A stretch of 64,000 nucleotides of DNA, taken from positions 1-64,000 of the forward strand of contig CANQRB010000003.1 of the NCBI GenBank assembly GCA_947626145.1, written 5' to 3'. The stretch comes from an uncultured Clostridia bacterium (lineage in GTDB: Bacteria; Bacillota; Clostridia; UMGS1883). Positions within the stretch are counted from its first letter, which is position 1, and each line of letters begins with the position of its first letter. The notes beneath the pieces are model-generated. The model did no database searches, was not told the DNA's origin, and saw only the letters and a list, made by a program, of their open reading frames with translations. Made by a program: the position numbers and the translations under genes. Shown piece by piece: positions 15,261 through 28,819 of the stretch.

Positions 15261-15289
15261 ATTATATAACAAAGAGGAAAAAATGTCAA
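15261..15289 (-). promoter_or_regulatory. sigma-A promoter for cysE-DHHW-MBOAT
   Basis: Perfect TTGACA-17-TATAAT on the minus strand, about 80 bp before the cysE start. No T-box or SAM riboswitch features are seen in the short leader. Confidence 0.88.
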
Positions 15290-15511
15290 GGCAATAGCGC
15301 ACAAAGATTGCCTTCCTATTGTGCGGCGACAAAAAATATATATCCGGCCGGCACGGAAAAAGTGGCAAATAATCCCACAGCAGCATCAAAAAAATTACAA
15401 CATGGAAGGTTTTTCGGCAATCATGTCATAATATTTCATTTTATATTTGTTATATTGTTGCATTTATTTTATTTCAAAAAAAGAGTAAAATATAGTCGAG
15501 GTGAAGTAATA

Positions 15512-23119: not shown

Positions 23120-24193
23120 TCAGCCGTTTATGATTACCGTGTATGTATCACCGTCCCACTGGACGTCGTAGCCGAGCTCCTCCGAAACAAAGCGGATAGG
23201 TATGAGCGTGCGGCCGTCCGTCGCCACGGCGGGCTGGGCCATGAGCTTTTCAATGCCGTCAACGAGGGCCGTGGCGCTGCCGATGGTGAGGACTATGGTC
23301 TTGCCCTTGGCGGTTATTGTGACGGTGTTGTTTTCGCCGTTCCATACGAACTCCGCGCCAAGTGGTTCCAACGCGAGTCTGACGGGCAGCATGGTAGTGC
23401 CGTCGATGGCCGTGGGCAGCACGTCAAAATCTATTTTACTGCCGTTGACCGTGACCTTTATTTCCGGTACAAGCGGTGCTGTTTCCGGCATTGGGGAGTT
23501 GTAGTGGATTGTGGCGTTGCTAATCATTTTCGGAAAAGCAAACTTATCCATACTCTTAATTTTTTCCCAGTCCTCTTCACTGCCGGTATAGTACAAATCA
23601 GTTAGATTAGGGCAATACATACCCCAGATGGTCTTAACACTGTCGGGAATAGTGATGCTGGTAAGGTATTCGTTATACATTTCGCTAATGTCTTTCACTC
23701 CATAGGGGATAACATAGCTTGTCCGTGTATTCCCTTTGGGGTAATATTCTAATGACATTCCTCCCTCTTCATAAATCATAAATAATACTCCGTCAATACT
23801 CATGTAACTCTTATTATCAGGATTGAATATTATTTCCTCAAGATTCGGACACCCTGAAAAAGGCCATTCCCAAAGCTCTTCCACACTGGCCGGTATTGTG
23901 ATGCTGGTAATATAGTCGCGGTCAAAGGCCTGACTACCAATAATAGTCACGGGCAGGCCCTCGATTTCTGAGGGAACGGAAATTCTGCTGTTACTACCGT
24001 TATAATCCGTAATAATGCAACAATCGCGGTCAAAATAATCACCGTCGCCATGTGCAATTATGTACCCAAAACCGTCGGCGGTATAAGCATCAGATTCCTC
24101 CTTAAAATCACTCGCCAACGCTACACCCGGCATAACTGCCATTACCATTGCCATACACACAAGCACGGCGAAACACTTCCTGATTTTGTTCAT
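23120..24193 (-). CDS. secreted BspA-like LRR protein with C-terminal copper-amine-oxidase-N/stalk domain
   Basis: A 357-residue exported protein. The signal peptide (MNKIRKCFAVLVCMAMVMAV, cleavage near ALA-S at about 28) is nearly identical to that of the large LRR protein at 25628. Residues about 65-225 hold a few irregular BspA/TpLRR-type repeats (ITSITIPASVEELWEWPFSG; LTSITIPDSVKTIWG). The last about 110 residues are two stalk-type repeats (copper amine oxidase N-domain-like: DGTTMLPVRLALEPLGAEF and DGRTLIPIRFVSEELGYDV), a cell-surface module common in Clostridia that does not imply amine oxidase activity. The ATG at 24193 follows AAGGAGGACGAACAA. A 280-nt leader with a terminator-like hairpin separates it from its promoter. 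Confidence 0.88.
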   Translation of the reverse strand: MNKIRKCFAVLVCMAMVMAVMPGVALASDFKEESDAYTADGFGYIIAHGDGDYFDRDCCIITDYNGSNSRISVPSEIEGLPVTIIGSQAFDRDYITSITIPASVEELWEWPFSGCPNLEEIIFNPDNKSYMSIDGVLFMIYEEGGMSLEYYPKGNTRTSYVIPYGVKDISEMYNEYLTSITIPDSVKTIWGMYCPNLTDLYYTGSEEDWEKIKSMDKFAFPKMISNATIHYNSPMPETAPLVPEIKVTVNGSKIDFDVLPTAIDGTTMLPVRLALEPLGAEFVWNGENNTVTITAKGKTIVLTIGSATALVDGIEKLMAQPAVATDGRTLIPIRFVSEELGYDVQWDGDTYTVIING

Positions 24194-24239
24194 TTGTTCG
24201 TCCTCCTTATATAAATTATGTGGTATTTTCCCGCCCATC

Positions 24240-24274
24240 AAAAAATGCGCGGTCTGAGCCGCGCACGAAAAACG
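24240..24274 (-). promoter_or_regulatory. terminator-like hairpin in the leader of the stalk/LRR gene
   Basis: On the minus strand, TGCGCGG-CTCAGA-CCGCGCA followed by six T, 47 bp before the start codon and within the transcript from the promoter at 24487. The stem and flanks (GCGTTTTTCG before, GATGGGCGGGA after) are identical to those at 25548-25593; only the loop differs. This is a candidate attenuator; no known riboswitch class was recognised. Confidence 0.6.
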
Positions 24275-24486
24275 CAGCCCGGTTTAATGTTGCCACACAT
24301 CACATTCTTAATTGCTATGCACGTATATTCCTGCTCTACTACACACCAAGAATGACACCAAAGCGTGCGTTTTTTCCATAGAAAAAACACACCCTTAGCG
24401 TATAATAAAGCAACAGAAAATATACATGACAATATATGATTGGCAATGTACACAGCAATTCAAATATTGTGAAATGTGGCACTTTT

Positions 24487-24515
24487 AGTATAACATATAT
24501 TTTTCCGGTTGTAAA
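24487..24515 (-). promoter_or_regulatory. promoter of the stalk/LRR gene, with long leader
   Basis: TTTACA-17-TATACT on the minus strand, about 290 bp before the start codon. The leader also holds a long AT-rich hairpin (GTGTGTTTTTTC/GAAAAAACGCAC, about 24363-24390). Confidence 0.75.
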
Positions 24516-24563
24516 GTGTTTTTTTAATTTTTTTACGGTTTGGGTAACTGGGCAATAAATTTC

Positions 24564-25211
24564 TCACGCAAAAAGCCTTGACGTGAGCTTTTTCTGCATC
24601 CACGCCACTATAGGCCCGCAGAAAAACGCCACCGCCACGGTGACTACACCCACCGAGCCGCCGAGGGCGAAGCCCGCCGCCATAAACGCCAGATCCCAAA
24701 GCATCCTGACGGTGCGGAAGGAAATCCTTTTGACCCGATGAGAAATGATAAAGGGCAGGGCGTCGTAGGGCGAAGAGCCCAGTCCCGAGCACATATAGGC
24801 CGCTGCCCCGAAGAGCAGCCCCGCCAGCCCCGGCAGCAGCAGGGCATAACGCACGGCCGCCGCCCCAAAAAAGCCCGCCGGCAGTATCAGCCGCCACAGC
24901 CAGGTGAAAAAGTCCGATATATAGCCCAAAAAGCACATATTCCCCACAGTGCCGAAGCCTATGTAGCTCATGTCGAGGCCCGCAACAAAGGCGAAGGTCA
25001 CAAGATGGCACAGCAGCTGGCAGGTGCCGAAGCTGAAGGGCACAAAATTTGCCACGCCGAGGGTCAGGCAGGAGCAGGGATCCACGCCCAGATTTATGGC
25101 CCGGAGTATGGAAAGGCCGAAGCCCTGAACCGTCACCCCGATTATCATCACCAACAGCCGCCGGAGGAAGGGCGCCGGCCGGCCGAAGCAGGTCAGTTGT
25201 TTTTTTGTCAT
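24564..25211 (-). CDS. YczE/YitT-like integral membrane protein
   Basis: A 215-residue protein with five or six hydrophobic helices, similar to the YczE/YyaS group of Firmicutes membrane proteins. Recognisable segments are IIGVTVQGFGLSILRAINLG near the N-terminus, GVDPCSCLTLG and YMCSGLGSSPYDAL in the middle. The two G-x-x-P-x-D/C-like segments look like an internal repeat, as in related transporters. YczE has a reported genetic link to lipopeptide production in Bacillus but no defined biochemical role. It has its own promoter, divergent from the large LRR gene. Function here unknown. Confidence 0.78.
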   Translation of the reverse strand: MTKKQLTCFGRPAPFLRRLLVMIIGVTVQGFGLSILRAINLGVDPCSCLTLGVANFVPFSFGTCQLLCHLVTFAFVAGLDMSYIGFGTVGNMCFLGYISDFFTWLWRLILPAGFFGAAAVRYALLLPGLAGLLFGAAAYMCSGLGSSPYDALPFIISHRVKRISFRTVRMLWDLAFMAAGFALGGSVGVVTVAVAFFCGPIVAWMQKKLTSRLFA

Positions 25212-25238
25212 ACGATCACTCCCAAAGGATTTTACATT

Positions 25239-25267
25239 ATTATAGCACCGTACCGGACAAATTTCAA
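25239..25267 (-). promoter_or_regulatory. promoter of the YczE-like gene
   Basis: TTGAAA-17-TATAAT on the minus strand, 27 bp before the start codon. Confidence 0.85.
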
Positions 25268-25291
25268 GTGCCTAAAAAATTGAAAAAATAC

Positions 25292-25320
25292 TTTACAAAA
25301 AATAAATTGTGTGATATACT
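25292..25320 (+). promoter_or_regulatory. promoter of the large LRR gene, with long leader
   Basis: TTTACA-17-TATACT, the same two hexamers and spacing as the promoter of the LRR paralogue at 24487. It starts a leader of about 300 nt that holds an AAGAGCATC/GATGCTCTT hairpin (about 25419-25464). Confidence 0.75.
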
Positions 25321-25547
25321 GAATTTGCGGCATAATTTGGATATAAAGGGAGACCTTGTTTTTTGCGTGGGCGAATTTTGCGCTCATGGCTTGTTTTGGT
25401 TGAATAAAATATTGCAAAAAGAGCATCTTTACAGTGGTAAAAATGCCGCTCTATATGATGCTCTTGGTGTCGCTTTAAGATTATCCTTAACCAAAAAGTG
25501 ATTTCCTTCTATCATATCCAATTTATGTCGCAGTAAATTCGGAGCGG

Positions 25548-25593
25548 GCGTTTTTCGTGCGCGGCTCCGTCCGCGCATTTTTTGATGGGCGGG
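25548..25593 (+). promoter_or_regulatory. terminator-like hairpin in the leader of the large LRR gene
   Basis: TGCGCGG-CTCCGT-CCGCGCA followed by six T (25558-25583), 45 bp before the start codon. It is the sister of 24240-24274. Since it lies between a promoter and its gene, it is a candidate attenuator, although leftover terminator function cannot be excluded. Confidence 0.6.
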
Positions 25594-25627
25594 AAATAAA
25601 ACATATATGCATAGGGAGGACGAACAA

Positions 25628-28600
25628 ATGAACAAAATCAGGAAGTGTCTCGCCGTGCTGGTGTGCATGGCAATGGTAATGGCAGTGATGCCAGGTGTTG
25701 CGTTGGCGGATGGAACGACCGCCGATGGATTTGAATACTATGTGTATTATGATTATGTGGAAATAACCGGCTATACCGGCGATGCTACGGATCTTATTAT
25801 TCCCGAAGAGATTGAAGGCTTACCTGTCACGTCAATCAGAAGCAGCGCTTTTTCCGGCTACGCCGGCCTTACAAATGTAACTATTCCAAACAGCGTCACG
25901 AGCATTGACAGGAGTGCGTTTTATGGCACCGCATTGTATAACGATAGTGCCAATTGGGATAATGGCGTATTCTATATAGGCGATATTTTAATTGAAACGC
26001 GTTATAAAATATCCGGCGATTATGTCATAAGGCCCGGAACGCGTATAATTAACGAGTTTGTATTTGATAATTGCGTCGACCTCACCAGCGTGAGCATACC
26101 CAACAGTGTAAAATATATCGGTAGTAATGCATTTGCGAATTGTACCGGACTCACCAGTATGACCATTCCAAACAGTGTCGTAGAAATTGGTTGGAGAGCG
26201 TTTGCTGATTGCACTGGCCTCACCGGTGTGACCATAGAAAACGGCGTCGCTGGAATTAGCGGTAATGCATTTAAGGGCTGTACCGGTCTCACCGATGTAA
26301 CCATTCCAAACAGCGTTACAAAAATTGGCGAGGAGGCCTTTTATGGATGCACCAGTCTTAAAAATGTGAATATACCCAATGGTATCACGGAAATTGGCCG
26401 CAGTGCGTTTGAGGGTTGCACCGGCATCACCAGCTTGACCATAGAAAACGGCGTCACTGAAATTGGCGATAGTATGTTAAAAAACTGTACCGGCATCACC
26501 AACGTGATAATTCCAAGCAGTGTTACGGAAATTGGATATAGTGCGTTTGAGGGCTGCACCGGCATCACCAATGTTATAATTCCAAGCAGTGTCACTGAAA
26601 TTGGCGGAGGTGCGTTTTCTGGTTGTATTGGCCTCACCAGCGTGAACATTCCCGACAGTGTTACGAAAATCGGCAGCGGTGCGTTCGAAAACACGGCAAT
26701 ATGTAACAATTATGAGAATTGGGGCAGTAATGTCCTTTACATAAATAATAATTTAATTAAGGCGCGCAAGGAAATATCCGGCGATTATATTATAAGGCCC
26801 GGAACGCTTACAATTGCCGGCGGCGCGTTTCACGGCTGCGCTGACCTCACCGGCATAACCATTCCCGAAAGTGTCACAAGCATAGGTAATTTTGCGTTTT
26901 GCAACTGCACAGGCCTTGTAAGTATAAAAATACCTGACAGTGTGAAAGAAATAGGAAGCAGTGCTTTTGAAAACTGCGCCAACTTGGCGACGGTCGACTT
27001 TGGAAATGGACTGAAAAGCATTGATGTAATGGCATTTAGCGACTGCGTTAGCTTAACATCCATAGATATTCCGGACACAGTGACTCACATTGGCTATTGG
27101 GCATTTAGTGACTGTACAGCTTTGGCGGATATAAAGCTTCCGGCAAAACTTGTGGAATTAGGCAATGCTTCGTTTTCCAATACAGCATATTACAATGACC
27201 CTGCCAATTGGGTCGACGGCGTCCTTTACAACGGGGACATTATTATGAATTCCATGGGTACAAATCCGGAATATGGACCTGCCTATACCTTTGACAGCAG
27301 CTATCGCATAAAGGACGGCACAAGAGTTGTGGTTCAGGCATTCTACGATCACAGTGAAATAAAGAACCTGACAGTGCCCGCCAGCGTTGAAGCCTTTGTC
27401 GGTAACGCCTGCGGCGAATTGCAGCTTCAAAGGCTGATTTTCGAGGGCAATGTCCCTCAAATTGTGTCCGAGATGGGAACGCAATATGAATTTTATCCAT
27501 TTGGGTACTTCATAGATCGATTGTATTACGGCAACGTTTTTATTTACTATCCGATCAACAATCAAACGTGGATCGAAGAGCTTGCCGACGGAGAGTTTTA
27601 TATTTTTAACGAGAGCAATGCCACATTTGTGCCTTACGACCCGTCTGTCGGGCCGGAACTCGTGCCTGATTTTACCGACCCAATCAAGTATAGGGTATAT
27701 CCGGATCACGTGGAGATAACCGATTATAAAGGAATGGCGTCGTCTCTGGAAATTCCCGCTCAGATCGAAGGATTGCCGGTTACTGCAATAGGGGACAAAG
27801 CCTTTGAATACTGCTGGTCTCTGGAGGAAGTGATACTGCCCAACAGCGTCACCGATATTGGGGATTGGGCATTTGAATACTCCAATATTAAAAGCATAAC
27901 AATACCGAACAGCGTTACCCACATAGGGAGCGGCGCATTTTATGGTTGCACCGGTCTTACCAGTGTGAATATTTCCAACTGCGCAACGGAAATCAGCGAT
28001 TATATGTTTTACGGTTGCACCGGCCTTACTGACATAACCGTACCCAACAGCGTCATAGATATAGGAAGCAATGCGTTTTATGGCTGCACCGGCCTAACTA
28101 ACATAACCATACCCAACAGTGTCACGAGTATAGGAAATAGTGCGTTTTCCGGCTGTACCGGTCTCAGCAGTGTGACCATAGGCAGCGGCGTTAAGGAAAT
28201 CAACAGCTCTTTTTCCGGCTGCACAAGTCTCGCCAATGTTACAATACCTGATAGCGTCACGAGCATTTATAGCGGCATATTTGACGACACAGCGTTATAT
28301 AACGATAATGCAAATTGGGACGATGGCGTCCTCTACATAAATAATCATTTAATAGCAGCGCGCCATGAAATATCCGGAGATTATATAATACGCCCCGGCA
28401 CATGTACTATAGCCGGCAGTGCGTTTAGCGGCTGTACCGGTCTCACAAGCGTTGACATTCCCGAGAGTGTTAAGGAAATTGGCTACAATGCGTTTTCCAA
28501 CTGCACCGGCCTAACTAGCGTGACAATTCCAAACAGTGTCGCAAAAATTGGCGATAGTGCATTTTCTGACTGTACTGGACTTATCAGTGTGTCTATAGGC

Positions 28601-28819
28601 AACGGTGTTAATGAAATCAGTACTGCTGCTTTTAGTGGCTGCACCGCTCTGCTCAGTGTGACCATCCCCAGCAATGTCACTATGCTTCGCGCCAGTGCGT
28701 TCTATGGTTGCACCAGTCTCACAGACATATACTACGGCGGCAATAATGGGTTTAGTTATTATCCCGGAAATGACTCGTTTTTTAACGCACAGATCCATTA
28801 TGATACACCAATGTCGTAA
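25628..28819 (+). CDS. large secreted BspA-like leucine-rich-repeat surface protein
   Basis: A 1063-residue exported protein. The signal peptide (MNKIRKCLAVLVCMAMVMAV, cleavage near ALA at about 27) matches its paralogue at 23120. The rest is mostly BspA/TpLRR repeats of about 23 residues with the pattern G-C-T-G-L-T-x-V-T-I-P-N-S-V-T-x-I-G-x-x-A-F, in two arrays (about 60-620 and 685-1045) that each restart with a Y-x-x-Y-x-D-x-V-E-I-T-x-Y strand. Four copies of an insert (NW-x-x-G-V-L/F-Y-I...EISGDYIIRPGT) interrupt the arrays. Such proteins bind host or microbial ligands. No sortase or SLH anchor is visible, so attachment is unclear. The ATG follows GGGAGGACGAACAA; a seven-codon upstream extension is possible but lacks a ribosome-binding site. 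Confidence 0.92.
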   Translation: MNKIRKCLAVLVCMAMVMAVMPGVALADGTTADGFEYYVYYDYVEITGYTGDATDLIIPEEIEGLPVTSIRSSAFSGYAGLTNVTIPNSVTSIDRSAFYGTALYNDSANWDNGVFYIGDILIETRYKISGDYVIRPGTRIINEFVFDNCVDLTSVSIPNSVKYIGSNAFANCTGLTSMTIPNSVVEIGWRAFADCTGLTGVTIENGVAGISGNAFKGCTGLTDVTIPNSVTKIGEEAFYGCTSLKNVNIPNGITEIGRSAFEGCTGITSLTIENGVTEIGDSMLKNCTGITNVIIPSSVTEIGYSAFEGCTGITNVIIPSSVTEIGGGAFSGCIGLTSVNIPDSVTKIGSGAFENTAICNNYENWGSNVLYINNNLIKARKEISGDYIIRPGTLTIAGGAFHGCADLTGITIPESVTSIGNFAFCNCTGLVSIKIPDSVKEIGSSAFENCANLATVDFGNGLKSIDVMAFSDCVSLTSIDIPDTVTHIGYWAFSDCTALADIKLPAKLVELGNASFSNTAYYNDPANWVDGVLYNGDIIMNSMGTNPEYGPAYTFDSSYRIKDGTRVVVQAFYDHSEIKNLTVPASVEAFVGNACGELQLQRLIFEGNVPQIVSEMGTQYEFYPFGYFIDRLYYGNVFIYYPINNQTWIEELADGEFYIFNESNATFVPYDPSVGPELVPDFTDPIKYRVYPDHVEITDYKGMASSLEIPAQIEGLPVTAIGDKAFEYCWSLEEVILPNSVTDIGDWAFEYSNIKSITIPNSVTHIGSGAFYGCTGLTSVNISNCATEISDYMFYGCTGLTDITVPNSVIDIGSNAFYGCTGLTNITIPNSVTSIGNSAFSGCTGLSSVTIGSGVKEINSSFSGCTSLANVTIPDSVTSIYSGIFDDTALYNDNANWDDGVLYINNHLIAARHEISGDYIIRPGTCTIAGSAFSGCTGLTSVDIPESVKEIGYNAFSNCTGLTSVTIPNSVAKIGDSAFSDCTGLISVSIGNGVNEISTAAFSGCTALLSVTIPSNVTMLRASAFYGCTSLTDIYYGGNNGFSYYPGNDSFFNAQIHYDTPMS

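Follow-up and report, generated by a model that had tools for sequence, protein, structure and literature searches.

A candidate family of transcription attenuator RNAs upstream of surface protein genes in Clostridia

Results

The window, a 64,000-nucleotide stretch of contig CANQRB010000003.1 from an uncultured Clostridia bacterium, contains two genes with signal-peptide-like starts and LRR_5 repeats. Gene A (positions 23120 to 24193, minus strand) encodes a secreted protein of 357 amino acids with LRR_5 and Cu_amine_oxidN1 domains, and gene B (25628 to 28819, plus strand) encodes a secreted BspA-type LRR_5 protein of 1,063 amino acids. Ahead of both stand the promoter hexamers TTTACA and TATACT, 17 nucleotides apart (24487 to 24515, minus strand, for gene A; 25292 to 25320, plus strand, for gene B), a leader of about 290 to 300 nucleotides, and a TGCGCGG/CCGCGCA hairpin followed by six T residues (24240 to 24265, minus strand, and 25558 to 25583, plus strand). 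In both leaders, 44 to 46 nucleotides separate the end of the U-tract from the start codon. The hairpin flanks, GCGTTTTTCG and GATGGGCGGGA, are identical between leaders A and B, and the loops differ (CTCAGA and CTCCGT). These features are present as the original prediction described them. Between the two leaders lies a hydrophobic open reading frame (ORF) of 215 amino acids without a Pfam match (24564 to 25211, minus strand).

The pair had been described as a duplicated leader. That description holds for the near-identical 3' end, the ribosome-binding site, and the signal-peptide start; the remainder represents two subtypes of one family. The flank GATGGGCGGGA occurs three times in the 2.44-Mb genome, twice in the two window leaders, and the exact palindrome pattern occurs at four places. 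When 141 nucleotides surrounding the hairpin served as a query against the genome, other loci matched in part, some by the ribosome-binding site and signal peptide only and others by the hairpin module only. The gene at positions 1517 to 2584 of locus L008 (G000:C2:87720) has the signal peptide and ribosome-binding site of gene A and, by eye, also its C-terminal domain. Because this gene has a gene-A-like start with no attenuator, the shared gene start and the RNA appear to have spread independently.

Seven copies that were read individually, the window pair included, share the same order of promoter, 5' segment of a closing stem (P1), variable interior, 3' segment of P1, and terminator. A custom covariance model of the 3' module (R1), a check that the original prediction had proposed, found 11 copies in the source genome (E ≤ 1e-3), matches in all 8 genomes of the genus (E ≤ 0.1), and 2 to 25 copies in each of the 21 genomes of the family (21/21 at E ≤ 0.001). 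A broader model built from 39 sequences (R2) matched 26 of 28 genomes of the order (E ≤ 1e-4) and 96 of the 391 in a class-wide sample (E ≤ 1e-6); only 13 candidates were scored per genome of that sample, which makes the copy numbers there lower bounds. When a phylum-wide sample of 398 genomes was searched, the source genome alone matched at E ≤ 1e-7, which argues for specificity. With its 11 copies and this sole match in the phylum sample, the leader pair is above chance. The original prediction was to be abandoned if the genome held no copies beyond a recent duplication; the copies are numerous and divergent. Matches across genus, family, order, and class rule out local duplication as the sole explanation. 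The pair, previously read in that way, instead represents two diverged copies from a large family of RNAs. One weak match in the window (15278 to 15339, minus strand; 17.5 bits, E = 0.038), located ahead of a T-run, is probably a chance match or a decayed copy.

We found this family in none of the catalogues searched. The comparison with Rfam 15 that had been proposed for the leaders matched them to no family: over the window the only match was a tRNA, and matches over the leaders were at chance level. No match lay over the RNA in 20 loci searched at the gathering score or in six searched at E ≤ 1. No description of the motif was recognized in the literature, surveyed mostly as titles and the opening lines of abstracts, which is no proof that it is unpublished. 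Among the named records carrying the RNA are isolates of "uncultured Clostridia bacterium" with the name Lapin, suggestive of the rabbit gut. In mobile-element collections, a plasmid collection had no match, exact-pattern scans of the viral_contigs collection gave none, and a phage collection had two. The latter, L253 and L254 (MT835845.1 and MT837627.1), are unverified "Bacteriophage sp." contigs from human feces with full members; in L253 the sequence adjoining the RNA looks bacterial by eye.

For statistics, 163 matches were extracted and 28 were removed by hand beforehand, leaving 135 members, of which 134 have a candidate for the strand designated 2 below. The removed sequences were weak matches (L086, L087, L088, and L136), contig-end cuts, near-duplicates, and failed automatic assignments of P1 or the U-run, and this selection favors P1. 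In a less selected set of 157 (the 163 minus the four weak matches and two with short upstream sequence), P1 scored at least 19 in 133 of 157 compared with 8 of 157 when the upstream sequence was shuffled; with the cutoff lowered to 15, the difference narrowed (151 versus 74 of 157). Three of the four weak matches had low P1 scores, and the fourth, L088, which we take to be a cobalamin-type leader, scored 21.5.

The members share a common plan of promoter, P1, rod-like hairpin, linker, and terminator. The −10 box ends exactly 5 nucleotides before P1 in 100 of 135 members. In leader A (all minus strand), the 5' strand of P1, TGCCACATTTCACAATATT, occupies 24463 to 24481, the likely transcription start region, and its 3' strand occupies 24291 to 24309. 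Within P1 lie strand 1, the 5' arm of the inner hairpin (24381 to 24392), and strand 2, GGAAAAAACGCACGC (24363 to 24377). Downstream of P1, strand 3, CCGGGCTGCGTTTTTC (24267 to 24282), is complementary both to strand 2, as a pseudoknot (duplex of −15.5 kcal/mol; see the family tests below), and to strand 4 (24256 to 24266), the left arm and loop of the intrinsic terminator, as an antiterminator. Leader B (all plus strand) has the corresponding P1 strands at 25325 to 25352 and 25506 to 25533, an inner hairpin (25421 to 25463) bearing strand 2, GGTAAAAATGCCGCTC (25436 to 25451), strand 3, CGGAGCGGGCGTTTTTC (25540 to 25556), and strand 4 (25557 to 25569); its 2:3 duplex reaches −18.1 kcal/mol. 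In both leaders the hairpin with its U-tract constitutes the predicted intrinsic terminator. Calculated energies of antiterminator and terminator are −15.2 and −12.2 kcal/mol in leader A and −15.8 and −11.6 kcal/mol in leader B.

Covariation was counted in 45 members, picked by eye before counting from 69 nonredundant short forms. P1 was 98.1% paired with double changes in 11 of 12 pairs, the inner P2 was 86.3% paired (7 of 7), the 2:3 pseudoknot was 89.7% paired (7 of 8), and the terminator was 99.3% paired (4 of 6). Across the 135 members, the pair at P1 position 4 was G-C in 68, C-G in 34, A-T in 16, and T-A in 15. The alternative antiterminator helix, 3:4, was 92 to 96% paired with double changes in only 3 of 8 pairs. 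An A5:U5 hairpin was 96% paired with no double changes; its sequence hardly varies, so covariation does not prove this portion of the inner hairpin. The compensatory changes support P1, the 2:3 pseudoknot, and the terminator as predicted helices. Neither the 500 shuffles nor any slid version of the pseudoknot structure reached a single one of five summary measures, and the antiterminator structure was likewise unmatched, results that are not probabilities and that overstate significance because the members are related and the 45 were picked by eye. RNAalifold recovered P1 and the terminator unaided. Minimum-energy folds of seven single members had a long rod within P1 followed by either the antiterminator or the terminator, with the core of strand 2 in a 3'-side bulge of the rod or near its apex. 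The leader RNA thus has the conserved secondary structure looked for in a riboswitch.

The two P1 strands are inverted repeats that enclose the interior between a promoter and a gene, and the genes encode surface proteins. Such an arrangement could also allow the DNA between the P1 repeats to invert and so produce phase variation, as at cwpV; phase control was among the inputs that the original prediction had listed. Were the interior an inverting switch, both orientations should be seen. Strand 3 pairs better with the interior in its present orientation in 128 of 134 members and with the inverted interior in 3, with 3 ties, which makes a cwpV-like DNA switch unlikely. Furthermore, P1 differs between copies within one genome and contains G-U pairs (at position 8 in 28 of 135), both unlike recombinase sites. 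We consider inversion highly improbable.

The interior of the rod is very variable in length and sequence. Leaders span 144 to 446 nucleotides (median, 173), although the longest may reflect wrong P1 assignment. Across the alignment of 45, no aptamer-like conserved pocket was found beyond an AAUA stretch and a short linker. This variability exceeds that of the usual metabolite aptamer and fits a protein-controlled attenuator, in which an RNA-binding protein on the rod, the AAUA, or the U-rich antiterminator loop would decide termination without a small molecule contacting the RNA directly. The U5 conserved in the antiterminator loop, the AAUA conserved after P1, and the breadth of the regulon point the same way. 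No candidate protein was encountered incidentally. We judge protein control to be rather unlikely, and a small-molecule riboswitch is tentatively favored over a protein-binding leader.

Nine loci (L184, L187, L191, L193, L239, L248, L250, L251, and L252) form a second subtype that is extended on the 5' side, where a GGG(G)TAT...ACCC(TTT) hairpin is often present, and in which strand 2 takes the form AAAAAYGCAAATTCC, both by eye. The extra sequence is perhaps a second sensing module. Tandem copies about 210 to 360 nucleotides apart occur at L095, L101, L148, L151, L213, and L222, and others at G026:C50:97121/97442 and G023:C23:211405/211623, an arrangement that suggests serial attenuators ahead of one gene.

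In 131 of 134 members, strand 3 was matched better by the member's own strand 2 than, on average, by 40 swapped partners, and in 123 of 134 its own strand 4 was the better partner of strand 3. An earlier swap set kept 98 of 114 members (14 were excluded by name and a P1 score of 15 was demanded of the rest); its counts were 97 of 98 for 2:3 and 87 of 98 for 3:4. Swapped 2:3 partners still pair at −12.1 kcal/mol, indicating that the 2:3 complementarity derives in part from a shared consensus. Given the likeness of strands 2 and 3 from copy to copy and the energy that swapped pairs reach, the terminated short RNA might act in trans as a small RNA, its strand 2 pairing with strand 3 of other copies while the genes are expressed by leakage. 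By a rule that places an ORF with a ribosome-binding site within 320 nucleotides, 16 of 135 members, some at contig ends, have no ORF, so some could be stand-alone RNAs. We nevertheless regard trans action as improbable: own pairs beat swapped ones, a conserved antiterminator would be purposeless for such an RNA, and in most copies a ribosome-binding site and gene lie directly behind the U-tract.

The original prediction had argued that a terminator between promoter and gene suggests regulated read-through. In strong support of this idea, an antiterminator alternative was present in all 135 kept members in a search for the best truncation, and pairing of the upstream segment with the left arm of the terminator averaged −14.3 kcal/mol in the family versus −6.1 kcal/mol in 81 ordinary terminators taken from the window and the retrieved loci. 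Antiterminator and terminator differ little in energy, with means of −15.8 and −14.7 kcal/mol (n = 135; antiterminator energies are the best values over truncation points), and the terminator is the more stable in 47 of 135. By sequence and covariation, terminator and antiterminator are mutually exclusive. The terminator and read-through parts of the original prediction stand, and what it missed are P1, the pseudoknot strand, and the antiterminator.

Such competition between strands resembles the logic of amino-acid operon attenuators, in which a ribosome translating a leader peptide would mediate attenuation. A ribosome-binding site, a start codon, and at least five codons were found inside the P1 domain in only 7 of 135 members, and the downstream genes are nonbiosynthetic. 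This mode of control is therefore, in our estimation, very unlikely to apply.

An ORF with a ribosome-binding site follows within 320 nucleotides in 119 of 135 members, with a median of 42 nucleotides from U-tract to start. By a crude rule, 76 of 119 downstream ORFs have a basic, hydrophobic N terminus, compared with 12 of 44 window ORFs, genes A and B among them. Pfam was run on 113 of 118 distinct downstream ORFs, each cut to 220 amino acids, and identified LRR_5 in 30, LRR_8 in 18, Cu_amine_oxidN1 in 7, SLH in 3, MazE/AbrB-like domains in 3, and YpsA in 2; single cases include a sugar transferase, a D-Ala-D-Ala carboxypeptidase, LiaF, and LytTR. The genes behind the RNA are mostly predicted to encode secreted or envelope proteins. 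At L083, L096, L097, L101, and L125, the RNA is followed by a conserved ORF of 45 to 51 amino acids (FxRIAxxExxLLDRLxGxxLxLLNDLIEAWTEY), the one member tested having no Pfam match.

Discussion

We propose that each leader is very probably a cis-acting transcription attenuator belonging to a new RNA family. Comparison among members, from which the identity and complementarity of the strands derive, indicates an RNA that starts at P1, with P1 enclosing the rod-like hairpin; strand 2, in a bulge or loop of the rod, has its complement in strand 3 immediately after P1, and strand 3 is likewise complementary to strand 4 in the terminator. As to the order of folding and the direction of control, we infer that in the OFF state strand 3 is sequestered by strand 2, as a pseudoknot with P1, so that the terminator forms and transcription stops, and that in the ON state a free strand 3 pairs with strand 4, blocking the terminator and allowing the gene to be transcribed. 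Less certainly, an effector acting at the P1-rod domain might shift this balance and so set many envelope genes together.

For the effector that the P1-rod domain would sense, a small molecule or ion is the most likely candidate, a choice we make with some hesitation. A more speculative reading is a new riboswitch class, found 2 to 25 times in each genome of its home family, for a signaling molecule other than c-di-GMP. Under that equally speculative reading, the signal could coordinate the cell surface of gut Clostridia, and the pseudoknot, one strand of which competes with the antiterminator, could fuse the sensing domain to the expression platform. Roughly one in four genomes sampled across the class has this RNA, often in multiple copies, with no match in Rfam 15. 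Because it precedes genes for BspA-type LRR proteins, S-layer-like proteins, AbrB/MazE-like and LytTR regulators, and enzymes of the cell wall, the effector would rank among the main signals by which gut Clostridia shape their surface. The three competing helices offer ready-made mutants for the mechanism and a handle for finding the effector.

Several known systems offer comparisons. In Clostridia, c-di-GMP riboswitches occur in many copies per genome ahead of surface and envelope genes, the same multicopy placement as here. No Rfam match to the c-di-GMP aptamer was found in the window, in the 20 loci, or in the six loci at E ≤ 1. Of the 28 genomes of the order, 16 encode GGDEF, and all 12 without a GGDEF match carry the RNA, making c-di-GMP unlikely as a common ligand; 5 of these 12 are at least 91% complete, and drafts can miss genes. 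As a universal ligand, c-di-GMP is accordingly disfavored.

Terminator-type riboswitches include pseudoknot classes such as preQ1, and they likewise combine a structured leader, a pseudoknot, a mutually exclusive antiterminator and terminator, and many genes per RNA class. Our family would work in a similar manner, with membership among riboswitches requiring a ligand. It differs in that it has no Rfam family, its interior is very variable, and its sequestering strand lies in the bulge of a long rod.

Amino-acid operon attenuators and T-box leaders likewise rely on competing strands to choose between a terminator and an antiterminator, the choice predicted here. Unlike the amino-acid operon attenuators, the family has no leader peptide (an ORF with a ribosome-binding site in 7 of 135). 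No T-box covariance match lay over the RNA in 20 loci, and one T-box lies elsewhere in L185.

In Clostridioides difficile, the cwpV switch also places inverted repeats and a terminator between a promoter and a surface protein gene; there, a 195-bp segment flanked by imperfect 21-bp repeats inverts, which is proposed to give the OFF transcript a terminator (PMC2784873). The RNA family described here bears no sign of inversion, and its complementarity acts at the level of RNA.
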